Shown piece by piece: positions 1,631-62,451 of a stretch of 64,000 bases of DNA (position 1 is the first letter of the stretch; every line of letters starts with the position of its first letter). The notes under the pieces are model-generated. The model saw only the letters and a list, made by a program, of their open reading frames with translations. It made no database searches and had not been told where the DNA came from. The stretch is from Mesoterricola silvestris. Its GTDB lineage: Bacteria > Acidobacteriota > Holophagae > Holophagales > Holophagaceae. Position numbers and translations under genes: made by a program. The stretch is taken from NCBI RefSeq assembly GCF_030295405.1, contig NZ_AP027080.1:2480001-2544000 (forward strand), in the 5' to 3' direction.

Positions 1631-2884
1631 ATGTCGAAGCTAAAGACTCCAGCCACATTCGAGACGACATTCGGTAGCTATGAAGTCACCGAGCTAATTG
1701 GCGAGGGCGGGGCTGGTCGGGTCTATGGCGGGACCGGACTAGATGGGAGACCCATCGCACTGAAGGTCCTGTCTGAGGAGAGAGCATCCAAGGAGAAGCG
1801 GGGGCGGTTCAAAAACGAGATAGCCTTCCTCGCCCGGAACAATCACCCAAACATCGTCACGGTCCTGGACCACGGGATCGCGACAAGTGGCAGTATCAAG
1901 GGACCGTTCTACGTGATGCCGCGATACAGCAGAAGCCTCCGTCAGTTGATGAAGGACGGGATGAAACCGGGTGACGTTCTTCCTTTGTTTGCTCAGTTTC
2001 TAGACGGCGTTGAGGCAGCGCATCTTCAGAAGGTGGTGCATCGTGACCTCAAGCCGGAGAACATCCTACTGGACGCAGGCGGTAAGACTCCCGCGATTGC
2101 CGATTTCGGGATCGCCAAGTTCAATGAGGACGTCATCGCCACGCTGGTCGAAACCTCACCGGCTCAGAGGCTCGCCAACTTCCAATACGCCGCCCCAGAG
2201 CAGAGAACCCCTGGGAAGGAGGCGGGCGTTGGTTCTGACCTCTATGCCCTGGGGCTGATGCTGAATGAGATGTATACCGGTGCCGTGCCGCATGGAACGG
2301 ACTACAAGACCATAGCCAGTGTCTTCCCTGAGATGGGGTTCCTGGATGAGATCGTCACGAAGATGCTGAAACAACAACCACAAGATAGACCCGGATCCAT
2401 CGCAGAAATCAAGGCTTTAATCCAGCGCTACCAATCTAAAGCTGTATCTCTTCAGCGATTGAGCAAAATCGACAACACAGTAATTCCAGAAGGCAAGGTG
2501 GACGATCCATTAGCATTCGAGCCACCAAAGCTAGTGAACTTTGATTGGGATGGGGAGAATCTAACGCTGATCCTTGATCGCCCGGTTTCCTATGAATGGA
2601 TCGCAGCGGTAAAAGACCTACGGGGCAGTTATTCATCGGTTATGGGGAAGGGTCCAGAAACATTTTTCTTTAAGGGTAATAGGGCAACGGTTGCTGCCCA
2701 GGAATATCAAGTCCAACAAATCATCGATCTGTTCAAACCTTGGCTTCCGATGGCAACTCAACGCCTTAGACAAAAATTGGAAGATGCTAACCAGCGAGCA
2801 GAAGCCGAACGAAAGACAAAGCAGCGGCAAGAGCGAGAAGCTGAAGAACGTCGAGTGAACTTGCTGCGAAATATTCGAATCTGA
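1631..2884 (+). CDS. Soluble Ser/Thr protein kinase
   Basis: This is a Hanks-type kinase of 417 residues that phosphorylates protein Ser/Thr using ATP. Visible motifs are the glycine loop IGEGGAGRVY (23-32), ATP lysine K45, catalytic HRDLKPEN (D139), DFG (D158) and a YAAPEQ segment in the activation region. The kinase domain covers about residues 15-270. A tail of about 150 residues follows, with no membrane segment, a mixed alpha/beta stretch and a charged Arg/Glu-rich coiled coil at the end, so it is predicted cytoplasmic. The tail was not recognised. It follows the RHS and putative immunity genes on the same strand with low GC and may belong to the same acquired island. Confidence 0.85.
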   Translation: MSKLKTPATFETTFGSYEVTELIGEGGAGRVYGGTGLDGRPIALKVLSEERASKEKRGRFKNEIAFLARNNHPNIVTVLDHGIATSGSIKGPFYVMPRYSRSLRQLMKDGMKPGDVLPLFAQFLDGVEAAHLQKVVHRDLKPENILLDAGGKTPAIADFGIAKFNEDVIATLVETSPAQRLANFQYAAPEQRTPGKEAGVGSDLYALGLMLNEMYTGAVPHGTDYKTIASVFPEMGFLDEIVTKMLKQQPQDRPGSIAEIKALIQRYQSKAVSLQRLSKIDNTVIPEGKVDDPLAFEPPKLVNFDWDGENLTLILDRPVSYEWIAAVKDLRGSYSSVMGKGPETFFFKGNRATVAAQEYQVQQIIDLFKPWLPMATQRLRQKLEDANQRAEAERKTKQRQEREAEERRVNLLRNIRI

Positions 2885-3272
2885 ACAGTCTGATGGAAAA
2901 CATTGTGTCCTTTCGGCAGGCGTGCGTTAAAGCGTAGCTTGATGGCGGGTAGGCTCATGGGTCGCTTGAGATCGCCCATTGTCATAGGCCATCAGAAACT
3001 GACCCCCCGGATGGGCGCGCTCCTGTCGTGGCGACCACCCGGCGCGCAGGGACGCGGGGGGGGTGCATTCGATCGGTTCCGGATACGCTGGCCAAACCCA
3101 GGTGGCGCGGTTGGCGTGCATTCGATCGCCCCGGGTGGGGCGCTCGCTTTTCGCGACTGAGGCCAGGGTAGTCGGCCCTGCCGGACCGGGCGAGCTGCCC
3201 CGGGGTCCCCAACGGCGGGCTGGCCTTGGCCGCGGGGGCTGGGATAATGCTTGCACCCCTCCGAGGTACCCC
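2885..3272 (+). other. Intergenic junction between island and backbone
   Basis: There is no convincing gene in this 388-bp gap. It carries a 13-bp direct repeat GTGCATTCGATCG at 3063-3075 and 3116-3128. Base composition rises from the low-GC island to the high-GC backbone across it, so it probably marks one edge of the acquired segment. A GATAAT box at 3243-3248 is a plausible -10 for the following TfoX-like gene. Confidence 0.4.
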
Positions 3273-3605
3273 ATGGCCACCCAGCAGCGCACCGTCGATT
3301 TCATCCTGGACCAGATGGGGGACGCGGGGGCCGTGTCGGCCAAGCGGATGTTCGGGGAGTACGGGGTCTTCCTGGACGGCAAGATGTTCGCCCTGATTTG
3401 CGATGACCGGCTGTTCCTCAAACCCACACCCGCGGGCCGGGAGCTGCTGGGCGCGGTGACGGAGGCGCCGCCCTATCCAGGCGCGAAGCCGTGCCTGCTC
3501 ATCCCGGAGGAGGACTGGGACGACCGGGAGCGTCTGGCGGCCCTGGCCCGGGTCACGGCGGACGGGCTGGAGGCGCCCCGGAAGAAGACCAAGGCCCGTT
3601 CCTAG
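3273..3605 (+). CDS. TfoX N-terminal domain protein
   Basis: This 110-residue protein matches the TfoX N-terminal domain in length and pattern: a MATQQ start, then SAKRMFGEYGVFLDGKMFALI, a typical K-R-MFG-x-YG-x-F core, and a short Lys-rich tail. The family is named after a competence regulator, but single-domain members are common and mostly uncharacterised, so a competence role is not claimed. ATG 3273 is chosen because GAGGT lies 5 nt upstream and the family N-terminus aligns there, although the frame stays open further upstream. A family A repeat follows directly and separates it from the convergent metallo-hydrolase gene. Confidence 0.8.
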   Translation: MATQQRTVDFILDQMGDAGAVSAKRMFGEYGVFLDGKMFALICDDRLFLKPTPAGRELLGAVTEAPPYPGAKPCLLIPEEDWDDRERLAALARVTADGLEAPRKKTKARS

Positions 3606-3667
3606 GCGTGGGTCGGCAAACCCTAGGTGCCTAGAAATCGCGATGAGGGGGCTGTTCCAGGTTGCGC

Positions 3668-3839
3668 GGATCCCCATTCATCCCATGCATCGGCGTTCAT
3701 CCCGGTTTCCGCAGGGCTGGCGCGGAGGTGGGTCGGAGCGCACGTTACTCGACGGCCTTGACCCAAAGGTGGCGACAAAACCCAGCGAAGTTCAAACGGG
3801 GATAAACAGGATCCAGGGGAAAACCAGGATAAAGAACGG
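3668..3839. repeat. Family A intergenic repeat, copy A1
   Basis: This repeat of about 170 bp fills the gap between two convergent genes and ends at the base before the MBL stop codon. Its left part has GGATCC, two TTCATCCC boxes and a TTTCCGCAGGGCTGG box. Its right part has GGGGATAAACAGGATCC, which pairs with the left end. Similarity to the other A copies begins earlier, at about 3623 (CCTAGGTGCCTAG). The copy at 35328-35493 is nearly full length in the opposite orientation, and the one at 31901-31986 is shorter. Confidence 0.75.
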
Positions 3840-4691
3840 TCAGTCGACGTTGACGGTCCGGTAGCCTTCGCCCTCGGGCACGATGCGCACCAGCTTCGGC
3901 AGATGCGCGCCGGCCAGGACCGCCTGGGCCGCCGCCGCCCGGCGGAAGAAGTCCAGGCGCGAAGCCACGGCCCGCTCCCCATCCAGGTCGTACACGATCC
4001 CCGTTTTGGGCCGGGCGAACTGCACGGCCCCGAAGTGGATGAGATCCCCGATGCACCACAGTTCCTTGCCCTCCGAGCGGAACGCGAAGACCATGTGGCC
4101 CGCGGTGTGGCCGGGGGCGGCCAGGGCGGTGACCCCTTCGGCGGGGGTGGCCCCGTCCCCGAGGAGCGTCACATCCTTGCCGTAGGCGGCGAAGATGGCC
4201 TTCACCTTGGGGATGCGGTCCCAAAGGCGCTCGGGCAGGCCCGCCTTCGTCGTCCACTGGTCGTGCTCGGTCCTGGAAACGCAGAGCTTGGCCCGGGGGA
4301 AGGCCCGGGTGCCGTCGGGACGGAGGAGGCCGCCCACATGGTCGAAGTGGAAGTGGGTGATGAGCACCATGTCCACCTGGTCCGGCTTCAGGCCGGCGGC
4401 TGCCAGCTGGGTGAGCAGGTGGCCGGAATCCACGTCCGGGTCCTTGCCCATGCCGGTGTCCACGAGGAGGGTCCGGCCGGGCATGCGCACCAGGAAGGCG
4501 TTCACGGGGGTGCTGGCGGCCTTGCGGCCGCCCAGGAGGCCCACGGCCTCCGCCGGGGGGATGTCCTTGAGGAGGGAGGCCTCCAGGGAGAGCGTGCCGT
4601 CCACCAGGGGTTGAACGGTCATGCGACCAAGGGGCACGGGGGCCTGGGCGTTGAGGATCAGGGTGGCGAGGCAGGGCAGGAGGATTCGCAT
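3840..4691 (-). CDS. Exported MBL-fold metallo-hydrolase
   Basis: This is a metallo-beta-lactamase-fold hydrolase of 283 residues. The zinc motif HFHFDH is at residues 113-118, preceded by LVDTGMGKDPD and followed by PGHTAGHM and IGDLIH, the expected later His and Asp ligands. The N-terminus MRILLPCLATLILNAQA looks like a signal peptide, so the enzyme is probably periplasmic. Overall pattern resembles the lactonase/quorum-quenching-like branch of the superfamily, but the substrate cannot be read from sequence. A -10-like TAGAAT lies only 6 nt upstream of the ATG, which suggests a leaderless message. It is divergent from the FAD oxidoreductase gene. Confidence 0.85.
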   Translation of the reverse strand: MRILLPCLATLILNAQAPVPLGRMTVQPLVDGTLSLEASLLKDIPPAEAVGLLGGRKAASTPVNAFLVRMPGRTLLVDTGMGKDPDVDSGHLLTQLAAAGLKPDQVDMVLITHFHFDHVGGLLRPDGTRAFPRAKLCVSRTEHDQWTTKAGLPERLWDRIPKVKAIFAAYGKDVTLLGDGATPAEGVTALAAPGHTAGHMVFAFRSEGKELWCIGDLIHFGAVQFARPKTGIVYDLDGERAVASRLDFFRRAAAAQAVLAGAHLPKLVRIVPEGEGYRTVNVD

Positions 4692-13356: not shown

Positions 13357-13430
13357 GGTCGTCCTCCTTGAGATTGCGACTCGAATTTTGGATGGGGGCG
13401 TTGGGAATTTCAACTGGAATCGGCTGGATA

Positions 13431-13516
13431 CCCTTCATCCGGGCGCGCCGACCCACCCCGCGGCTGGCCCTGCGGGAACGGGGATGAAGGTGATGGAGGG
13501 GATGAAAGGGATGAAG
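13431..13516. repeat. Family B repeat, partial copy B4
   Basis: This copy keeps the apex (GCGCCGACCCACCCC) and the right arm (CTGGCCCTGCGGGAACGGGGATGAA and repeated GGGGATGAA units), while the left arm is reduced to CCCTTCATCC. It lies between the VOC gene and the unknown secreted-protein gene, just downstream of the latter's 3' end. Confidence 0.65.
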
Positions 13517-13525
13517 AACCGAACT

Positions 13526-15214
13526 CTAGGGGCGGGTGGGGCAAGGGACAAGACGCCGGAGCAGGGTCCATAGGCCGCTGGCCTGGGTTCTGCCGGCGCC
13601 GTTGGGGACGGCCTGGGCCGGGCCGGAACTGGCGGGGGCTTCCAGGAGGCCGGTCACGAGGATCACCGAGGGCTCCTCGCCGGGGGCGGGGGCCTCGGTG
13701 CCGGACACCGCCAGAACGAAAGGAATGGGGGGCGCGGTGGAGGAGGAGGACGAGGAGGAGGAGGTGCCGGTGGACGGGTCGGCCGGGGAAGCGGAAAGGT
13801 TGGCGAGGGCGGTGGAGGAGCTGGCGAGGGTCGGTGCTCCGGCCGCCTCGGATTCGCGGTCATCCAACTGATCCAGGCTCTCCGCGTTGAAGGCCTGGAT
13901 GAGGTCCGCCAGCCAGACGCGGGACAGGGCGGAGATCCGCAGCAGATCGAAGGCCTGGGTGAAAACGCTGGTGCCGGCCAGGGCCACCCCGTCGGACGCG
14001 GCGGCCAGGTCCGCGGCCGAAGCGGCGGAGCCGGCCTGGTTCGCGGCGGTGCTGGCGATGAGGAGGAGGCGGGAACCGGCGAACAGGCTGTTGCCCAGGC
14101 CCAGGGCCCGGGTCCCCGCCGCCGTCACCAGCGCCGCGAATTCGTCGAAGGTGGCGAAGGTATCGCTGCGGGTGCGGGAATCGGCCAGAGGGGAGGTGGG
14201 GCAGGGTGCCTGGCGGCCCCTGAGGATGCCCGCGGTCAGGCAGGCGATGCCATGGCGGTAGAGGTGGGAAATGGTGACGTTCCGGGCCCTGAACCCCTCC
14301 GCCACGCCCCGCTCGCACACCGGAAGAATCAGGTGGTGCCGGGCGGCCAAGGTGCATCCTTCGGTCAACCCGGCCAGGGCCGTCGCCATGGCCGGCATGG
14401 GGGGTTCCAGGGCGGTATCGCCGGAGTCGGGCGTCCCGGGCGGCGCCCCGGTGCAGTTCAGCCAGGCATTCTCCTGGCTGTTGGCATACCGCTGGTAGAC
14501 GGCCCGGCTCGCCCCCGACAGGGCCGCCACCTCCCCGAAGATATCCCCGTCCGCCTCCAATTCGAGGCTGACGGCGATCAGGCTGTCGCCCACCAGGCCC
14601 AGGACGGCGGCCGCGGCGGAATGGTTTCCGTTGGCCTGCAGGGCGGCCTGACCCAGGCGCAGGCCCGCCCCGGCGGACTGGAGCGCGTAGGCGTCCCGGT
14701 TGAGCTGGTACATGAGGGCCCCGCCCTGGGCCGACAGGCGATCGAAATCCGCCAATTGATTGCTCTGGGTCAACGCGAGGCGCTCCTTGGCCTCATCGGC
14801 CGCCTCTCCCTCCAGGCACCATCCGGGGCCCAGGACCTCCGGGTTCTGGAACAGGTGCCGCGCATCCGCGAACACGCGCAGGGCCTGGGCCTGGATTCCG
14901 GTCCGGTAGTGGGGATCGCAGGGGCCCAGGGCATGGCCCATCATGGCGGCCGGCCCGCAAAGGGGGCCCAGCGCCTGGAACCCGTTCAGGGCCGGATCCT
15001 CCAGGAACGGGTTGGACCGGGCCTGGGCCGGCAGCGCGGCGGGATCCATCAGGGCGCCCAGGCCCAGCAGGAGCATGCAACAGAATCCCGGGCGCCCCGA
15101 AGGGGCCGGCGCCTTCCGCCGGGCCGGGGGCCCGGCCTGGGCCAGGGTCCCGGCCAGGAGCACAAGGGTTACGCCGCGCAGGCAGACGTAACGGGGGATC
15201 AGTCGGACGGTCAT
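13526..15214 (-). CDS. Large secreted protein of unknown function
   Basis: I do not recognise a family. The 562-residue product starts with a signal-like segment (GVTLVLLAGTLAQAG) followed by a second hydrophobic stretch (FCCMLLLGLGALMDPAALPAQA), so the true export signal could be either one. The body is Ala-rich and helical with scattered Cys residues. Near the C-terminus there is a Ser-rich linker (STGTSSSSSSSSTAPP) and a short basic tail. The start is supported by GGGAG upstream. No catalytic motif is visible. Helix-rich composition and an exported N-terminus suggest an envelope or secreted structural protein, but that is only an impression. Confidence 0.55.
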   Translation of the reverse strand: MTVRLIPRYVCLRGVTLVLLAGTLAQAGPPARRKAPAPSGRPGFCCMLLLGLGALMDPAALPAQARSNPFLEDPALNGFQALGPLCGPAAMMGHALGPCDPHYRTGIQAQALRVFADARHLFQNPEVLGPGWCLEGEAADEAKERLALTQSNQLADFDRLSAQGGALMYQLNRDAYALQSAGAGLRLGQAALQANGNHSAAAAVLGLVGDSLIAVSLELEADGDIFGEVAALSGASRAVYQRYANSQENAWLNCTGAPPGTPDSGDTALEPPMPAMATALAGLTEGCTLAARHHLILPVCERGVAEGFRARNVTISHLYRHGIACLTAGILRGRQAPCPTSPLADSRTRSDTFATFDEFAALVTAAGTRALGLGNSLFAGSRLLLIASTAANQAGSAASAADLAAASDGVALAGTSVFTQAFDLLRISALSRVWLADLIQAFNAESLDQLDDRESEAAGAPTLASSSTALANLSASPADPSTGTSSSSSSSSTAPPIPFVLAVSGTEAPAPGEEPSVILVTGLLEAPASSGPAQAVPNGAGRTQASGLWTLLRRLVPCPTRP

Positions 15215-17995: not shown

Positions 17996-18493
17996 ATGTC
18001 CGTTCCCGTCCTAGCGTTCCACCACTACCTGCACAGCCCGGCGGGCTGGATCGGCGTGGGCCTGGCGGAGGGCGGCAAGATCAGCCATCTGGAGATCCTT
18101 CCCGAAACCGAGGACACCCTCATCCTCACCCCCCGGAACCGCCGGGAACCCCGGGTCATGGACTTCCTCAAGACCCAGCTGGACGGCTACTTCCGCCGGA
18201 CCCTGCGCACCTTCAACCTGCCCATGCACCTGGAGGGGGACGCCTGGCGGCAGCGGGTGTGGGCGGAGACCCTCGGGGTGGGGTACGGCCAGACGGTGGA
18301 CCTTGCCACCCTGGCCCGGCGCCTGAATTCCGGCGACCACCCGGAGGCCGTCGCCGCCGCCCTGGCCGCCAACCCCGTGGCGATCCTGGTGCCCTCCCAC
18401 CGGGTCCTGGGCTGGGAGGGCGGGGAGGCCCTACCCTGGCTCCGCTTCCTGAGGAAACTGGAGGGGTTGGCGGAAGCATCGAACCGGGCCTAG
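17996..18493 (+). CDS. MGMT/Ogt-family alkyltransferase-like protein lacking the catalytic cysteine
   Basis: The 165-residue protein follows the O6-alkylguanine-DNA methyltransferase fold: an N-terminal RNase-H-like half, then the DNA-binding helix-turn-helix with GYGQTVDLATLARRL and AVAAALAANPVAILVPSHRV. In active enzymes the last motif is PCHRV with Cys as alkyl acceptor. Here codon 18395-18397 is TCC, giving Ser (S134). The Arg finger normally preceding AVG is also replaced (HPEAVAA, Glu). By analogy with alkyltransferase-like (ATL) proteins, it may recognise alkylated bases without repairing them and recruit excision repair. ATL proteins usually carry Trp or Ala here, so Ser is unusual. 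GGAG lies about 10 nt upstream. Confidence 0.78.
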   Translation: MSVPVLAFHHYLHSPAGWIGVGLAEGGKISHLEILPETEDTLILTPRNRREPRVMDFLKTQLDGYFRRTLRTFNLPMHLEGDAWRQRVWAETLGVGYGQTVDLATLARRLNSGDHPEAVAAALAANPVAILVPSHRVLGWEGGEALPWLRFLRKLEGLAEASNRA

Positions 18494-18600
18494 ACCAGGT
18501 TTCCGACGCACCCCAAGGATCCCTGCCGAAGCCGCAGATAACAATTTCCTGATAACTTCGGTCCGGCTCCTCAGCCGAGAACGGACTGAGCTCGATGGCT

Positions 18601-18755
18601 CATCCCCTTCATCCTGTTCATCCGATTTCATCCCTGTTCCCGCAGGGCCAGAGCAGCGATGGGTCGGCGCATGCGGGTCAACGACGCGCCACCCCATCTC
18701 ATCGCTGGCCCTGCGGGAACAGGGATGAAATCGGATGAATAGGATGAAGGGGATG
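18601..18755. repeat. Family B palindromic repeat, copy B1
   Basis: This 155-bp imperfect palindrome lies between two convergent genes. The left arm reads CATCCCCTTCATCCTGTTCA, then TTCATCCCTGTTCCCGCAGG; the right arm is its complement (CCTGCGGGAACAGGGATGAA, then GGATGAAGGGGATG). The apex carries GATGGGTCGGCGC. As RNA it would form a long hairpin. Copies lie at 46438-46592 and 62097-62247, with a partial copy at 13431-13516. The rest of the 335-bp gap shows nothing else. Confidence 0.8.
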
Positions 18756-18828
18756 AACGTGCTCCCAGGGAAGGCGCCAAGGCGTTTCGGGCCATCGACT
18801 CCGCCGGGATCCGTGGCTCAGGTCCGGC

Positions 18829-20136
18829 TCAGCGCGCCCGGAGCGGGGCGGTGGCCCTGAGCAGGAGCTCCCGCTGCCAGGCGGCGAAGGCTTCCGGGTC
18901 GGTGCAGGCCAGTTCGCAGAACCGGGCCACGTACGCGGGGGAACTGCGCTCATCCTCCAGCTCGTCCCGGGTGGGGGGCCGGGGGGGTGGGGCGGGGGCC
19001 CCGGAAACCGGTGCGGGTTCCAGGGGGGGGAGGTCGGCGGCGGCCATGAGGGCCGCCTCTTCCTCCTCCCGGGCGCCGGCCCGCACCCGCCGGCGCTCCT
19101 CCAACTGGGCCTCGAGCCGGGCGAGGCGGGCCTCCCGCGCCTCCCGGGTGCGCTGCCGCTGGGCTTCGGCATGGTCCTGGTCCCGCCGGGCCTCCAGGGC
19201 CGCCTGGGCCTCGCGGGTCCGCCGGCCCTCCGCCTCCCGTTCCGCCGCCTCCCGGGCGGCCTGGCGCTTGGTTTCCTGGCGCCGCCGCTTCCGTTCCAGG
19301 TTGGCTTCGTGCCAGGCCCGGGTGTTCCGGGCTTCGGAGGCCCGGGGGGCCACGGCGGGGCTACAGGCTGTCGGGCGCAGGCCCCGGGCCAGGGCCTCCG
19401 CGGCCCATTCGCGGGCCGCGGCCTTCTCCAGCCGGTAGGGCCCCGGTCCCCGGGCCAGGAAGCAGGGCAGGCCCACGCCGGGAAGGGGCTCCCACCCCTT
19501 GAGGAGCTCCCCCAGGGGGTCGGGCGTGAAGGGGCCCAGGGCCCGCCTCCACAGGGTCCACGGCGCCGTGGCCACGCACCGGTCCCAGCCGTCGCCCAGG
19601 CCCAGGCTGAACAGCCGGGCCTCCGCGGCGATCTTCGCCATGGGGGCAGCCGCGTCCCGGCCGGAGCCGGGACGGGACGTCACGGCCGCCAGGGCCCGCT
19701 GGGCCAGGGCCAGGCTCTCGCTCTGCACCAGGCCGATGTGGACGGTGCATTCCATGCGGGTCTGGGTGGCCAGGGCGGCCTCGGTCTGTTCAAGCAGGGA
19801 AACGAGCCGCGCCCGGGCCGGGTCCCCCTCCGGCAGGATGGCCAGTCGCTCCAGGTACTTGATCTGCAGATCATAGTTGGCCGCCATGCGTTTCCAGGCG
19901 GCTTCCAGGGACTGGAGCGGCTCGGCGAGGGCGCGGATCGCCTCCCGGCAGTGGGGGGAATCGGCCAGCTGGGCATACAGCGGGGTGCGGTACCGGTCCA
20001 GGGCCCTGCGGGCCCCCCCGGCGGGATCCAGGGCGGGAGAAGAGGCGGAGGACCCGCACGGCGGAGGGTCCATGGCCATCAGGTGCCCGGCGCACAGGGC
20101 CAGGGCCAGGAGGATGCGAAGGGGAAAGACGGGCAT
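18829..20136 (-). CDS. Exported coiled-coil protein of unknown function
   Basis: I do not recognise a family. The 435-residue product begins with a signal peptide (PLRILLALALCAGHLMA) and a Cys a few residues into the mature part. Residues 30-280 are helical with no clear motif. Residues 280-380 are an almost uninterrupted Arg/Glu/Ala/Gln coiled coil (repeated ERK, AREA and LEAR units). A Pro-rich stretch and a short C-terminal domain ending WQRELLLRATAPLRAR follow. The start is supported by GAGGA 7 nt upstream; an upstream in-frame ATG at 20172 is less likely. A periplasmic scaffold role is possible but unproven. Confidence 0.6.
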   Translation of the reverse strand: MPVFPLRILLALALCAGHLMAMDPPPCGSSASSPALDPAGGARRALDRYRTPLYAQLADSPHCREAIRALAEPLQSLEAAWKRMAANYDLQIKYLERLAILPEGDPARARLVSLLEQTEAALATQTRMECTVHIGLVQSESLALAQRALAAVTSRPGSGRDAAAPMAKIAAEARLFSLGLGDGWDRCVATAPWTLWRRALGPFTPDPLGELLKGWEPLPGVGLPCFLARGPGPYRLEKAAAREWAAEALARGLRPTACSPAVAPRASEARNTRAWHEANLERKRRRQETKRQAAREAAEREAEGRRTREAQAALEARRDQDHAEAQRQRTREAREARLARLEAQLEERRRVRAGAREEEEAALMAAADLPPLEPAPVSGAPAPPPRPPTRDELEDERSSPAYVARFCELACTDPEAFAAWQRELLLRATAPLRAR

Positions 20137-31257: not shown

Positions 31258-31839
31258 ATGTCCCCAAGCACGCGTATGCTCCTGATCGCCCCGCTCCTGG
31301 CCGCGGCGCCCCTGGCCGCCGCCGAGGCGGGCTTCGGCGCCCAGCTCCATCTGGCCAAGCCCCTGGGCACCTTCTCCGATGCCCGCCACCTGGACAACAC
31401 CCTGGGCTGGGGCCTGGGCCTCATGGTGCCCGTGGACTTCGGCGCCGGCCAAGGTCTCCGCCCCAAGCTGGACTACCTCTCCTTCCGCCGCGGCGCCGGG
31501 GACCAGCGCTACAAGGCCGACGCCCTGCTCCTCATGGCCGACTACACCTGCTTCGTGGCCGACGAAGCCGAGGGCGGCTACGTCTTCGCCGGCCTGGGCC
31601 TCCACTCCACCCGCCTGGACGCCACCCGGGGCATCGGCCCCCTGGTCACCGGCGCGCGGCACACCCACACCGGCTTCGCCTTCAACGTCGGCCTCGGCTA
31701 CGCCTTCACCCGGAACTTCACCTTCGAAGTGAAGTACCTCGGCATGGACATGGGCCGCCTCGCCTACACCCTCCCCGCCACCACCGACCCCTCCTTCATG
31801 GCCAACGCCATCGTCGGCTCCCTGGGCTACAAGTTCTAG
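31258..31839 (+). CDS. Outer-membrane beta-barrel protein
   Basis: The 193-residue protein has a signal peptide ([16 protein letters not shown]) followed by alternating amphipathic strands with aromatic residues, and ends with GSLGYKF. A terminal Phe is the recognition signal for the BAM assembly machinery. Size fits an eight-stranded OmpA/OmpW-like barrel. No peptidoglycan-binding domain is present. GGAGG is 4-5 nt upstream. It is divergent from the sigma-54 activator. A similar but distinct barrel is encoded at 53519-54133. Confidence 0.78.
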
Positions 31840-31900
31840 GGTGCGTCGTCATACCCCAGGTGCCTTGGCTCCATGATGAAGGGGCCCTTCCTGGCTGAGC

Positions 31901-31986
31901 GGATCCCCGTTCATCCCATCCATCGGCGTTCATCCCTGTTTCCGCAGGGCTGACGCCGAGGTGGGTCCGAGCGCGAGTTACTCGAT
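31901..31986. repeat. Family A repeat, shortened copy A2
   Basis: It holds the GGATCCCCGTTCATCCCATC and TTTCCGCAGGGCTGACGC blocks through GAGTTACTCGAT. The right part present in A1 and A3 is missing. The upstream flank (CCCAGGTGCCTTGG, about 31855) also matches the A1 flank. It lies between two genes on the plus strand. Confidence 0.65.
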
Positions 31987-35000: not shown

Positions 35001-35250
35001 CGGCCGTGGCTTCTTCCGGTTCCAGGGCAGGACCTACGGCAGCTCCTGGGACGGCCTGGCCCTGGCCCTGCCCAACCCCTACAACCCCAAGCGCACCCTC
35101 TACCTCTACACCGCCAACAGCCGCCTGGAACTGTGGCACATGACCCACGCCTTCCAGAGGGGGCTGCCGGGGTGGGTGCTCTACCGCGGCGCGGAAACCG
35201 CGGCCAAGGGCTTCCACGCGGAAGCGCGCCACGAGGTGGAGCTGGACTAG
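32065..35250 (+). CDS. Large exported C45/phospholipase-B-like Ntn-hydrolase with extra domains
   Basis: The 1061-residue product starts with a signal peptide (MRRAWGVLGVCFSAMALVAS). Residues 20-190 look like a jelly-roll carbohydrate-binding module (VNAGFEEQKDAQVVGW, EVGRLYRLSAFIRTKG). Residues 205-620 are an Ntn-hydrolase of the acyltransferase/C45 and phospholipase B-like group: EPYDRGVQYGQL, then GDRCSSFIA with the likely nucleophilic Cys after self-cleavage, and NDWTIADTKT. The rest resembles the C-terminal part of M1-type peptidases (FTRTFSKSLGRDLSPFIQQW) followed by a beta domain, without an HExxH. Substrate is unknown, perhaps acyl-amide or lipid. GGGGAG lies upstream of the ATG. Confidence 0.72.
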   Translation: MRRAWGVLGVCFSAMALVASDPAALPLVNAGFEEQKDAQVVGWTLAKATGATVAIGLGHKAGFRSLRLENPAGGAESTVVSEPVKLEVGRLYRLSAFIRTKGVHPDPTARYPTALGACVSMKSFPFTNASPTVAGDGSQRVSVAFFATTAQDRVQLHLGRNGKTEGAAWFDDLKLELVDDIGAIIPMETVRWAGKGFRYDDGGWIVLHIEGEPYDRGVQYGQLVAQELALFVEKLANLQDKGDPVRGWERQRTLADALMLRKYEPEFLEEMKGIADGAARAGAKFRGRALDVLDVVTANSDIDLGEIASATKVTASPLTGRSFLKAEDEAATGGKGDRCSSFIATKSASADGRVVMGQIFMWPPGYTGVDWNVMVDVQPAKGHRFVMQTFPGGISSGTDWYINDAGIVIGETTVQQTPFNPDGTPEANRIRQAAQYATSIDQVAEILKTRNNGLYTNDWTIADTKTDEGAVFLLGTKETRLWRTGSKGHPADTPGGLKDFVWADNNNRDLGVRKERIPNAENEPVDLAFNTWNRDIAFQEFYRQYGQGKFDLQAGVALNASSPINRPHACDGKLTTSEMAEKLMFIAHFGKTTLREKWVGGRFMADLPGATPHLTLGFTTFSPLYVADKLKQARAAAPEPAPAPRADLAAAKDVYAFPKRLLWSNTVLPATDGENWFVSGSAAYHALLKRLPEAQDKAAASLRDSLAELNARYAYVVSKEGSLAPAKARTAYDRYGAYQIPRIKGTFLLHQLRLLVGNALFAKAMAAVHDGFSNRPMTTEDFTRTFSKSLGRDLSPFIQQWVGREDLPDPVITATVAPAAEGFDVTVKVTQPGKPWHFVTFVELRTAKGSRFLRLESDEAMGSTTYHVPDKPTRVIFNAGRDLPVRQENPYTLPNLLDDFDHTLYVFGTSREVEANRSLALNFRDLMADAFTEILPPVKPDAEVTDGELASRDLVVFGGPEENSLLARMAGEHKLPVTFGRGFFRFQGRTYGSSWDGLALALPNPYNPKRTLYLYTANSRLELWHMTHAFQRGLPGWVLYRGAETAAKGFHAEARHEVELD

Positions 35251-35327
35251 GGTGTTTCGGCAAGCACCTAGGTCCTGAATCCCTAGATTGTTCTCGGTGA
35301 TCTGGCTCCAGCTTTGACTTGGCCTTT

Positions 35328-35493
35328 TTTATCCTGCCTTTTCCCCTGGATCCTGTTTATCCCCGTTTGAACTACGCTTGAAGTTGTCGCAACCTTTGGG
35401 TCAAGGACGGCGAGTAACATGCGCTCCGACCCATCCCTGCGCCAGCCCTGCGGAAACCGGGATGAACGCCGATGGATGGGATGAACTGGGATC
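35328..35493. repeat. Family A repeat, copy A3 (reverse orientation)
   Basis: This nearly full-length copy is in the opposite orientation to A1: GGATCCTGTTTATCCCCG at its start, GCGCTCCGACCCATCCCTGC in the middle and CGCCGATGGATGGGATGAA near its end. It lies between convergent genes. Similarity to the A1 flank continues to about 35525, so it runs across the stop codon and last codons of the histidine kinase gene. Confidence 0.75.
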
Positions 35494-44687: not shown

Positions 44688-46328
44688 ATGCGATACCTGA
44701 TCTCGAACCTCCCCCTGGCGCTCGGCGAGGAGAAGAAGCCCCTCCCGGACACCCTGGCCGCCCTCCTCGGGGGCCGGGCCGCGGACTTCCGGGATCCCGT
44801 GCTGGAGCGCCTGAGCCTGGACGCGCGCCACAAGGGCTCCATCCGCTTCCTGGCCACCCTGGCCTTCGACACGGACCGGGACATCGCGGACCTGCCCCTG
44901 CCCAAGGGGGCCCAGCTGGACACCGCGCCCCGGCCCGTGGCCTGGGCGGTGCCCCCCGTGGCGCGCAAGCCCCGGGTCGTGGTGGTGGGCAGCGGCCCCG
45001 CCGGCACCTTCTGCGCCCTGCGGCTCCTGGACTACGGCATCGAGCCCGTGGTGCTCGAGCGCGGCGCGCCCATGTCCGAGCGGGTGCGGGCGGTGGCCGG
45101 GCTCTGGAACGAGGCCGTGCTGGATCCCGGCGCCAACGCGCAGTTCGGGGAGGGCGGCGCCGGCACCTTCTCCGACGGCAAGCTCACCACCCGCATCGGC
45201 CACCCCGCCATCCGCTTCGTCATCGAGACCTTCGTGAAGTTCGGGGCCGATCCCAAGGTGCTCTACCTGGCCAGGCCCCACGTGGGCACCGACGTCATCC
45301 GCAAGTGCTCCGTGCTCATCCGGAAAGAGGCCGAGGCCCGGGGGGCCCGGTACCGGTTCCGGGCGCGCCTGGCCGACATCCGCTTCCGGGACGGGGCCGT
45401 GGCCGCGGCCGTGCTGGACACCGGCGAGGAGATCGCCTGCGAGGCCATCGTCCTGGCCCCCGGCCACAGCGCCCGGGACACCTTCGAGATGCTCCACGGC
45501 CACGGCGTGGCCATGCGCCAGAAGGCCTTCGCCATGGGGGTGCGCATCGAGCACCCCCAGGCGCTCATCGACCAGTCCCAGTACGGCCCCTCCAAGGGCC
45601 ACCCGAGCCTCGCCCCCGCCGACTACAAGGTCGTCTGCAACTTCGGCCCCGCCCGGGCCGCGTACTCGTTCTGCATGTGCCCCGGCGGCGAGGTGATCCA
45701 GTGCGCCTCGGAACCCGGCGGCGTGGTGGTCAACGGCATGAGCAACGCCCGGCGCGATTCGGGCTTCGCCAATTCGGGCCTGGTGGCCAAGGTGAACACC
45801 GCCGATTTCGGCTCGGACCACCTGCTGGCCGGCATGTACTTCCAGAGGAAATGGGAGCAGGCCGCCTTCCGCGCCGCGGGCGAAACCTACGGGGCCCCGG
45901 CCACCAGCGTCCAGGACTTCCTCCGGGGCCGGGCCTCCGGGAACCTCCCCGCCACCAGCTTCCGTCCCTTCGCCGTCCCCGCCGACGTGGGCACCTGCCT
46001 GCCGGACTTCGTCCAGGAGCAGCTGCGGGGCGCCATCCCCGACTTCGACCGGAAGATCCACGGCTTCGCCAGCCGCCAGGCCCTCCTCCTGGCCATCGAG
46101 AGCCGCACCAGCAGCCCCGTGCAGATGATCCGGGGCGAGGACGGCCAGAGCGTGAGCCACCGCGGCCTCTACCCCTGCGGCGAGGGCGCCGGCTTCGCGG
46201 GAGGCATCACCTCCGCCGCCGTGGACGGCATCCGGGTGGCCGAATGGATCGCCCAGACCTGCGGGGCGGCGCCCTTCCTGCCCTTCCAGCGCAACGTGAA
46301 GGCCGGGGACTACGCGACCGAATACTAG
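44688..46328 (+). CDS. FAD-dependent oxidoreductase (COG2509-like)
   Basis: This 546-residue flavoprotein has an N-terminal domain of about 95 residues (MRYLISNLPLALGEEKK) followed by the dinucleotide-binding VVVVGSGPAGTFCALRLLDYG, and later FGEGGAGTFSDGKLTTRIG and GEGAGFAGGITSAAVDGIRVAE near the C-terminus. This arrangement fits the COG2509 group of uncharacterised flavoenzymes, widespread in bacteria. The substrate is unknown. GAGGAG is 4-5 nt upstream of the ATG. Its 3' end faces the GNAT gene across a family B repeat. Confidence 0.78.
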   Translation: MRYLISNLPLALGEEKKPLPDTLAALLGGRAADFRDPVLERLSLDARHKGSIRFLATLAFDTDRDIADLPLPKGAQLDTAPRPVAWAVPPVARKPRVVVVGSGPAGTFCALRLLDYGIEPVVLERGAPMSERVRAVAGLWNEAVLDPGANAQFGEGGAGTFSDGKLTTRIGHPAIRFVIETFVKFGADPKVLYLARPHVGTDVIRKCSVLIRKEAEARGARYRFRARLADIRFRDGAVAAAVLDTGEEIACEAIVLAPGHSARDTFEMLHGHGVAMRQKAFAMGVRIEHPQALIDQSQYGPSKGHPSLAPADYKVVCNFGPARAAYSFCMCPGGEVIQCASEPGGVVVNGMSNARRDSGFANSGLVAKVNTADFGSDHLLAGMYFQRKWEQAAFRAAGETYGAPATSVQDFLRGRASGNLPATSFRPFAVPADVGTCLPDFVQEQLRGAIPDFDRKIHGFASRQALLLAIESRTSSPVQMIRGEDGQSVSHRGLYPCGEGAGFAGGITSAAVDGIRVAEWIAQTCGAAPFLPFQRNVKAGDYATEY

Positions 46329-46437
46329 CTTAAGGATCCGACCCAACCTGGCTATAACTAGCGATGCCAGGGGATTGCTGACCGATGAAACGTAAAGTCA
46401 GGCTCCTAGGCCGGGGACGGACTAATTTCAACGGGTG

Positions 46438-46592
46438 ATCCCCTTCATCCTGTTCATCCAGTTTTTATCCCTGTTTCCGCAGGGCCAGTGATGGAGTGGG
46501 GCGGCGCGCAGTTGATCTGCATGCGCCGACCCATCCCTGCTTTGGCCCTGCGGGAACAGGGATGAATAAAGGATTAACAGGATGAAGGGGAT
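46438..46592. repeat. Family B palindromic repeat, copy B2
   Basis: Arms are ATCCCCTTCATCCTGTTCAT and CCTGTTTCCGCAGGGCCAG on the left, with complementary GGCCCTGCGGGAACAGGGAT and GGATGAAGGGGAT on the right. The apex holds ATGCGCCGACCCATCCC. A GGGTGATC/GATCACCC pair just outside (46434 and 46603) extends the pairing. It separates convergent genes. The rest of the 335-bp gap shows only a weak CCTGGC/GCCAGG hairpin at 46347-46371. Confidence 0.78.
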
Positions 46593-46663
46593 GAAAGAGG
46601 GGATCACCCTCTGGCTCCCAGGTGATAGGCCGGGACGGAGGCAAGGCGGGGCGGAAGGCCGGT

Positions 46664-47122
46664 CTACAGCGCGAGCCTGTGGAAGATCTGCCTTCCATCC
46701 CATCTTTTCGAAAATGCGTTGAAGCCCAGGCTGCGGTAGATGGCCAGAGAGGCGGCGTTGTTCTCGTTGGTGTCCAGGCACACGGTAGTACAGGAACGGG
46801 CCCGGGCCAGGCCCAATGCGAATTCCACCAGGGCCCGGCCGGTGCCGGCCTTGCGGGCGGCGGGGTCCACATACAGATCCTCCAGAGTGGCCTCCGTGCC
46901 GCAGGCCCACATGGAGTGGCGGTACCGCAACAGGACGTAGCCCAGGGGGACGCTGCCATCGGTGGCCAAGGCGAACTCCGCGTCCGGGGAGGCCAGGAGG
47001 CGCTCGATGCTCCCGGCGAACTGGGCGTCCGTGGGGGCGCTGCGGCCCAGGTGGTCCCGGAAGCCGGAGGCCAGGGACGTCAAGGATGCCTGATCCGCCT
47101 TCACGGCGCGCCGGATTTCCAT
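46664..47122 (-). CDS. GNAT-family N-acetyltransferase
   Basis: The 152-residue protein begins MEIRRAVKADQASLTSLASG and has the acetyl-CoA binding loop in LYVDPAARKAGTGRALVEFAL (Q/R-x-x-G-x-A type) followed by VCLDTNENNAASLAIYRSLGF, the usual last strands. It transfers acetyl from acetyl-CoA to an amine; substrate unknown. GAGGT lies upstream of ATG 47122. It is divergent from prfC. A second GNAT gene at 56295-56825 is only distantly similar. Confidence 0.85.
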   Translation of the reverse strand: MEIRRAVKADQASLTSLASGFRDHLGRSAPTDAQFAGSIERLLASPDAEFALATDGSVPLGYVLLRYRHSMWACGTEATLEDLYVDPAARKAGTGRALVEFALGLARARSCTTVCLDTNENNAASLAIYRSLGFNAFSKRWDGRQIFHRLAL

Positions 47123-61975: not shown

Positions 61976-62096
61976 CTGGGGCCCTAGCCCAATTTCCCGT
62001 CTCACTCCAGCTATCACTACCGAACCCAGCATATAGTCATCCCATGAAAACTACAGCATTCCCCCTCAGCCAGGAATGACCTGGGTTCAGCGCTTC

Positions 62097-62247
62097 ATCC
62101 CCTTCATCCTGATCATCCGATTCATCCCTGTTCCAGCAGGGCCATAGCCGGGATGGGTCGGGGCATGCAGAGCAACTGCGCGCCGCCCCACCTCGGCGCT
62201 GGCCCTGCGGGAACAGGGATGAATTGGATGGACTGGATGAAGGGGAT
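62097..62247. repeat. Family B palindromic repeat, copy B3
   Basis: Left arm: ATCCCCTTCATCCTGATCAT, then TTCATCCCTGTTCCAGCAGG. Right arm: the complementary CCTGCGGGAACAGGGATGAA, then GGATGAAGGGGAT. The apex has GATGGGTCGGGGCATG and GCGCGCCGCCCC. It lies downstream of C4 in the same gap, between the pit operon and the 3' end of phoB. The remaining 200 bp up to 62451 show nothing clear. Confidence 0.78.
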
Positions 62248-62451
62248 AGAAACCGGAAGTGCCAGATTGGACCTGGTGGCTCCAATGCGGATCGTGATTC
62301 CGGGCGAGTTGCCCCGACCGAAAATCCGTGCGATTGGACTTACGGTTTTATGAGGTGGGGTGGGTCGGAAAGTTGGCTAGGCCCCCACGGGAGGCCCCAG
62401 GGCCCACCCGGCCGAGTACCACGGGCGAAGGTCCGGGGCACGGCCCCTCGC

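Follow-up and report, generated by a model that had tools for sequence, protein, structure and literature searches.

At positions 18601-18755 of the DNA analysed here lies a long palindrome, downstream of a gene (17996-18493) for an ogt-type methyltransferase (NCBIfam TIGR00589). We refer to the whole 64-kb stretch as the window (G000:C1:2480001-2544000); it is part of the 4.99-Mb, single-contig genome of Mesoterricola silvestris (G000). The initial annotation had placed three palindromes of about 155 bp and one half copy in the window, and had divided related repeats into families A and B. Sequence reading, an inverted-repeat search and folding found all four copies where they had been placed. 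The features are as follows.

3602-3820, forward strand: family A element with a CTAG, an IS5-like end and a palindromic core (3673-3820); like locus L116 minus the coding region
13430-13512, reverse strand: truncated copy consisting of a single arm plus some of the apex; the reverse-strand gene at 13526 has its CTAG stop 13 nt away
18490-18493, forward strand: CTAG that forms both the left end of the element containing the 18601-18755 palindrome and the TAG stop of the 17996-18493 gene
18494-18600, forward strand: left module, with the inverted-repeat end TTCCGACGCACCCC at 18501
18601-18755: family B palindrome, apex orientation a; the right end of the whole element is unrecognisable here
31836-31980, forward strand: family A element reduced to the side of the 3' arm, with its CTAG at 31836
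35247-35486, reverse strand: family A element, CTAG at 35247, core at 35342-35486
46325-46328, forward strand: CTAG, left end of the 46438 element and TAG stop of the 44688-46328 gene
46329-46437, forward strand: left module of the 46438 element
46438-46592: family B palindrome, apex orientation b; the orthologous 2-bp gap in the congener G001 is element-free
46593-46663, forward strand: right module with a degenerate end, adjoining the stop (CTA) of a reverse-strand GNAT-like gene (46664-47122)
61984-61987: CTAG, left end of the third element
61988-62096, forward strand: left module of the third element
62097-62247: family B palindrome, apex orientation a
62248-62376, forward strand: right module with an inverted-repeat end (TTCCGACCCACCCC on the reverse strand at 62357)
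62377-62380: CTAG, right end of the third element

The palindrome arms are 90% complementary in the 18601 copy (18600-18670 and 18686-18756), 81% in the 46438 copy (46438-46507 and 46523-46592) and 84% in the 62097 copy (62097-62164 and 62180-62247). As anticipated in the initial annotation, the predicted RNA hairpins are very stable; folding gave -131.7, -115.2 and -120.1 kcal/mol respectively. The partial copy (13431-13516; profile match 13430-13512) consists of one half and part of the apex. The apex is shared, as had been claimed, but it occurs in both orientations, so at 46438 GATGGGTCGGCGC is found on the opposite strand. The separation of family A did not hold. A profile built from 30 copies also matches 3673-3820, 35342-35486 and 31906-31980, which places all seven relatives in the window in one family. 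The 21-nt arm motif TGGCCCTGCGGGAACNGGGAT has 96 matches in the host genome (53 + 43) and its backward-read control none, so the repeat is not a product of chance. With the motif shortened by one base, and three mismatches allowed, there were 119 + 105 matches versus 1 + 9 for the control.

Searches of the window found no Rfam match and no tRNA. The window contains other repeats. Two long inverted repeats fall outside the palindrome-family profile: 28626-28752/28897-29023 (127 nt, 84%, 144 nt between arms) and 56931-57044/57293-57406 (114 nt, 89%, 248 nt between arms). A repeat with the palindromic core CGCTGACGCAGGCAAGCTGCGTCAGCG has four copies (49768, 50109, 56960 and 57351), and a 79-nt direct repeat (38135-38213/61644-61722, 84%) includes the hairpin-like TCATCGCCGGACAAGCCGGCGATGA.

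To estimate copy number we sampled 400 kb of the host genome, as 20 evenly spaced 20-kb stretches, with the 30-copy profile. This returned 14 loci, equivalent to an estimated 175 or so per genome. Over all stretches of G000 examined we collected 85 distinct loci, 65 of which score above 100 bits. The repeat extends beyond the palindrome. In most full copies the palindrome is preceded by a conserved left module, about 110 nt long, which starts at a CTAG and has TTCCGACCCACCCC within the next ten or so bases. This module is kept in 43 of the 65 copies, which allows these to be oriented. The right module is more variable, and often ends with the inverse of the left-end sequence. A full copy generally forms the middle of a MITE-like unit of 250-435 bp with inverted-repeat ends and CTAG. 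Matches to the end motif numbered 51, compared with 5 for the control, and many were paired 250-435 bp apart around cores. Terminal inverted repeats are therefore present, yet some copies lack one or both ends. A sequence like GTGGGTCGG occurs in the apex, at family A ends and, inverted, at family B ends (window positions 3605, 18658 and 62357). A common origin of the three, with GTGGGTCGG on one strand, is possible from the sequence.

The palindromes had been described as lying at gene 3' ends. In the window, the 18601 and 46438 copies are between convergent genes, and the 62097 and 13431 copies each face the 3' end of one gene. The same placement is evident genome-wide, using gene calls from a custom gene finder. 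Among the 85 loci, 59 are in convergent, 20 in tandem and 2 in divergent gaps; background gaps in a 464-kb sample numbered 58, 225 and 51 respectively (Fisher p 3e-21 for the convergent bias, 81 classified loci). Of the other four, three are unclassified at stretch ends and one is inside a gene that is doubtfully called. The elements are short and gene-less, with a single core within a called gene, and the random placement inside genes that would have spoken against the original description was not seen.

The CTAG tetranucleotide accounts for this distribution. A CTAG stop is present at 58 of the 138 genes facing elements, versus 55 of all 355 called genes (p 2e-9). In many cases the distance between this CTAG and the core is exactly 109-112 nt. 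The remaining 80 of the 138 stops are not CTAG. The window has 38 CTAG sites, where its base composition would predict 184. In the 464-kb sample, we counted 13 CTAG in 356 kb of coding DNA, 54 at stops and 127 in 108 kb of intergenic DNA. Because CTAG hardly occurs within genes, and survives mainly as a stop codon and in intergenic DNA, elements that insert at CTAG come to lie at gene 3' ends.

We also considered intrinsic termination, since the repeats had been proposed to be bidirectional terminators. For the 65 copies, read on both strands, none of the 130 arm ends has a T-run after the hairpin, and there are no terminator-like sites at 18400-18900. With placement explained by insertion at CTAG stops, termination finds no support as the reason for the repeats. 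The hairpins may nevertheless have acquired an effect on transcription or mRNA stability.

We compared the elements with 60 stretches of 20 kb from the congener G001; this is a comparison between species, G000 and G001, rather than between strains. The clearest case is element 26 (G000:C1:1497264). In G001, the corresponding convergent genes share one CTAG (GGCGTGCTCTAGCGCGGCGG, gap -4), and G000 carries 388 bp extra between a CTAG on either side. The left flanking gene is 85% identical in G001; the match on the right is weak, at 51% for 102 of 155 residues. This is the sole locus with a clean CTAG on both sides and a single CTAG in the congener. At element 3 (146399), both orthologues sit side by side in G001, where a CTAG again spans the gap of -4. 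For the 46438 copy the G001 gap is 2 bp and element-free, as judged by the left gene (83% identical). Further element-free G001 gaps measure 0, 1, 4 and 6 bp (elements 7, 13, 50 and 10); elements 7, 50 and 10 were judged by one flanking gene, and element 13 is a weak copy. Several other G001 gaps have TGA or another stop, and there a CTAG before insertion is assumed. At element 37, the orthologous G001 gap has its own diverged palindrome and an insertion-sequence-like sequence (L315, G001:C1:1860001-1880000, 2418-4160).

The genes that face elements end where their relatives end. Thus, the unmatched C-terminal tails of 28 orthologous gene ends are only 0-9 residues long, and the genes have not been cut short. 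Cores are also much rarer in the congener, with 5 in 1.2 Mb of G001 versus 14 in 400 kb of G000. Taken together with the empty G001 sites, this indicates that spread of the elements is largely specific to the G000 lineage.

The source of the elements can be traced to a gene found beside a transposase match. Its product matches TIGR04256, named 'GxxExxY', and PF13366 (PDDEXK_3) at 136.6 and 131.3 bits, well above the respective cut-offs of 35 and 22. The host genome has six GxxExxY matches, five of which adjoin palindrome arms. For the diverged gene at L117 (G000:C1:777510-777866) no arms were recognisable. Family A (3590-3860) matches L116, one of these GxxExxY elements, on both sides of a missing coding region (152 nt at 84.9% and 84 nt at 86.9%), and its apex keeps the last codons and stop of the GxxExxY gene. 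These alignments identify family A as an IS5-ended, GxxExxY-carrying element with the coding region deleted. Family B matches the 3' arm of the GxxExxY gene on both strands and is, by the same comparison, a more derived form with both arms taken from that 3' arm.

In this genus GxxExxY travels with two types of transposase. It is cargo of an IS5-type transposase in two 1.5-kb copies in G000 (88.7% identical, CTAG ends), and of an IS630-type transposase in seven 1.87-kb copies in G004 (more than 99% identical, CTAG ends). The G004 elements also hold a 141-nt palindrome whose sequence is different (-106.9 kcal/mol). IS630 reportedly prefers the TA in CTAG, to go by the title of Tenzen and Ohtsubo's 1991 paper. 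Family A has ends similar to the IS5 ends of L111 and L112; those of family B are like IS5 ends but not equal to them. Our search found no autonomous element with the exact ends of family B, and no pair of such ends more than 1 kb apart. Separately, G001 has more than 20 fragments covering the first 53 GxxExxY positions, all with the same score (e.g. C1:4180209-4180367). They probably belong to a further high-copy element that bears part of the GxxExxY gene. On the strength of these sequence comparisons, the units around the palindromes can be said to be mobile, CTAG-ended, inserted at CTAG stops and derived from a GxxExxY-carrying element.

The association of GxxExxY with inverted repeats is not confined to the host genome. 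TIGR04256 matches are present in 48 of 61 genomes of the host's family. At 28 of 30 loci in this set an inverted repeat flanks the gene (scores 34-99; the maximum from 300 shuffled sequences was 28); the other two fall below the threshold of 34. We also scanned named genomes, keeping 80 loci from at least 567 relatives among at least 594 pattern matches listed; three of the 80 repeat loci of the host-family set. They come from Deltaproteobacteria, Planctomycetota, Cyanobacteria, Acidobacteriota, Acetobacteraceae, Chloroflexi, Armatimonadota, an archaeal MAG and others. For the 78 testable loci, 64 score at least 34 and 14 fall below, compared with 3 of 130 control positions at the same loci that reach it. 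At a score of at least 30 the figures are 69 of 78 and 5 of 130, with medians of 46 and 20.

The arms are built from units of 9-10 nt, about one helical turn, and their self-match at distance 10 is 0.367 versus 0.261 in controls. Arm sequences vary between loci (e.g. CACCACGGAGGCACGGAG, ACCGCAGAGAACGCAGAG, AACCACAGATGAACACAGAT and AGCCAGGATGAAGGGGAT), even within a genome. Thus, all six GxxExxY genes of G035 have inverted arms, which differ in sequence; G061, with ten GxxExxY matches in total, has inverted arms at seven of eight loci examined. Similarity between arms follows similarity between proteins. Across 108 distinct loci the Spearman coefficient is 0.525, and for 42 loci of one bacterial family it is 0.431; none of 500 permutations was as high in either case. 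Among the 66 named loci alone the relationship is weak (0.191, matched by 10 of 500 permutations). Plasmid and phage collections were too poor in GxxExxY relatives to serve as a source of strain-level insertions: there were 7 in 72,556 plasmid records and none in 50,697 phage records.

An AlphaFold model of GxxExxY, made from 48 sequences, has a mean pLDDT of 97.6. By sequence there was no solved structure (one match, E 0.78). With Foldseek, the best matches to the model were SSO0001 (4ic1, a Cas4), the AddAB nuclease and the LHK and lambda exonucleases (4ceh, 3syy and 3slp). Structural alignment to 4ic1 gave Z 10.2 over 96 residues at 3.4 A. Archaeal Hjc resolvases reached at most Z 7.7, and structure matches below Z 8 were left out as evidence of function. 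Residues E22, D61, E71, K73 and Q85 are invariant in all 48 sequences and Y89 is present in 47. Hence, the PD-(D/E)XK catalytic residues (E, D, ExK and QxxxY) are all there. The modelled fold and these residues make GxxExxY likely to be an active nuclease, for which the arms are only a candidate substrate. A search of PADLOC anti-phage defence profiles with two proteins returned no families.

Hairpins without a gene are also widespread. One arm pattern, with three mismatches allowed, is present in 55 of 62 genomes and a control pattern in none. Counts reach 228, in Fischerella thermalis PCC 7521 (G125). The matches are often inverted pairs about 35-100 bp apart, and 20 of 20 pairs examined fold as a hairpin. 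Across 61 host-family genomes the arm count correlates with the number of GxxExxY genes (Spearman 0.46, p 2e-4; 0.53 within genus g4), in part trivially because the gene brings its own arms. In G074, there are 41 arm matches and one GxxExxY match, so many arms are not beside the gene. G080 is a clear exception, with 16 arm matches and no GxxExxY match. Conversely, G096, G100 and G000 have the gene and none of the arm type scanned.

Two properties of the palindromes in G000 bear on how the arms are maintained. Relative to the left flank, the apex is in one orientation in 22, and the other in 21, of the 43 orientable copies. Agreement between the two arms of the same copy is 0.872, compared with a mean of 0.829 and a maximum of 0.841 when arms were permuted between copies (200 permutations). 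An apex found both ways round, and arms that match their own partners best, are compatible with arms that exchange or copy sequence. If pairing were under selection, this would account for the arm matching but not for apex flipping.

We favour, at a probability of about three in four, a reading of the palindromes as the interior of MITE-like, non-autonomous elements with CTAG as their insertion site; the estimate includes movement in trans and the gene-hairpin system outlined here. Convergent neighbours can share one CTAG, and insertion there would fall at gene 3' ends with neither protein changed. A CTAG-targeting transposase of the IS5 or IS630 type, both of which occur in the genus with GxxExxY as cargo, would have moved the elements in trans. 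With less certainty, the GxxExxY nuclease may recognise its own arms and act on them where they extrude as hairpins or cruciforms, perhaps at replication forks. If breaks result, their repair might copy one arm onto the other, so that the arms stay matched and the apex can flip. Transposase-driven spread in G000 is well supported; action of the nuclease on the hairpins is what we infer. For the broader proposal, that GxxExxY and arms of 9-10-nt units form a widespread two-part element, we consider the case evenly balanced. Such an element would be a counterpart of REPIN/RAYT based on a minimal, Cas4-like PD-(D/E)XK nuclease, with recognition of its own arms, a gene-less hairpin population and, in this genus, pickup by CTAG insertion sequences.

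Three other explanations were weighed. The nuclease itself could move or copy the palindromes, in the manner of REPINs, and the CTAG-bounded outer parts would then be passengers or older insertions. The inverted arms of GxxExxY genes do follow the protein, other genomes contain gene-less hairpins that lack such ends, and the left module is kept in 43 of the 65 copies rather than in all. However, full copies often start at a CTAG at the fixed distance of 109-112 nt from the core, and the clean empty site lacks all 388 bp of the CTAG-bounded unit rather than just the palindrome. We regard this explanation as unlikely. Slightly less probable still is that the hairpins are selected terminators or protectors of mRNA 3' ends, kept or spread because they stop or stabilise transcripts. 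Very stable folds, a strong convergent bias and arms that drift yet stay complementary would all fit such a role. Against it are the missing T-runs and terminator-like sites, the orthologous convergent pairs in G001 that have no hairpin in gaps of -4 to 6 bp, and the choice of CTAG as target, which accounts for the bias.

The initial annotation had also suggested BIME-like sites. This was near the mark in form, since the repeats are interspersed, extragenic, palindromic and present in many copies. Ordinary REP or BIME sequences would be served by a Y1 (RAYT) transposase, but PF01797 has no match in the host genome and the same search was positive in 5 of 14 control genomes. RAYT/IS200 was rejected on this result. 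The arms also lack a GTAG-type foot, and we consider this explanation very improbable.

No occurrence of six arm strings was found in the open literature searched. There, GxxExxY yielded only mentions (e.g. in the accessible part of PMC8934634) and PDDEXK_3 nothing. As far as that literature goes, a system of GxxExxY gene and inverted-repeat hairpins seems undescribed. Repeats like ATCTGTGTTCATCTGTGGTT are scattered through many phyla, and the tie to one small family of nuclease genes converts them from anonymous repeats to a gene-repeat system that can be tested. GxxExxY, hitherto a name without a function, gains a candidate substrate. For this genome, palindromes at convergent gene ends have a simple account, in that CTAG is found mainly as a stop codon and in intergenic DNA.

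Several known systems are similar in part. GxxExxY is like Cas4, AddB and the lambda and LHK exonucleases in its predicted fold and QxxxY-type motif; unlike them, it is a stand-alone protein of 113 residues whose gene is embedded in inverted repeats. MITEs of IS5 and IS630 are also short, non-coding and of high copy number, with inverted-repeat ends, CTAG at both ends and insertion-sequence relatives in the genus. The present elements differ in their long palindromic core, which stems from a nuclease gene together with its arms. REPINs, as presented in the accessible text of Bertels and Rainey (PMC3116915), are REP doublets with a Y1 HUH transposase. There too, inverted short repeats form hairpins in many extragenic, gene-less copies, the gene is flanked by its own repeats, and a genome may have several gene-repeat pairs. 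Here, however, the gene encodes a PD-(D/E)XK nuclease instead of a Y1 enzyme, and the arms are 9-10-nt units instead of GTAG-tagged REP sequences. Because the Y1 enzyme is absent, the GxxExxY system is REPIN/RAYT-like without being a member. Untagged palindromic repeats such as CGTC are likewise widespread palindromes and, in the part of PMC3733652 available, are not associated with transposase genes; that part asks if untagged repeats pair with specific binding proteins. The repeats described here differ from the CGTC type in sequence and unit structure, and for them a candidate protein can be named.
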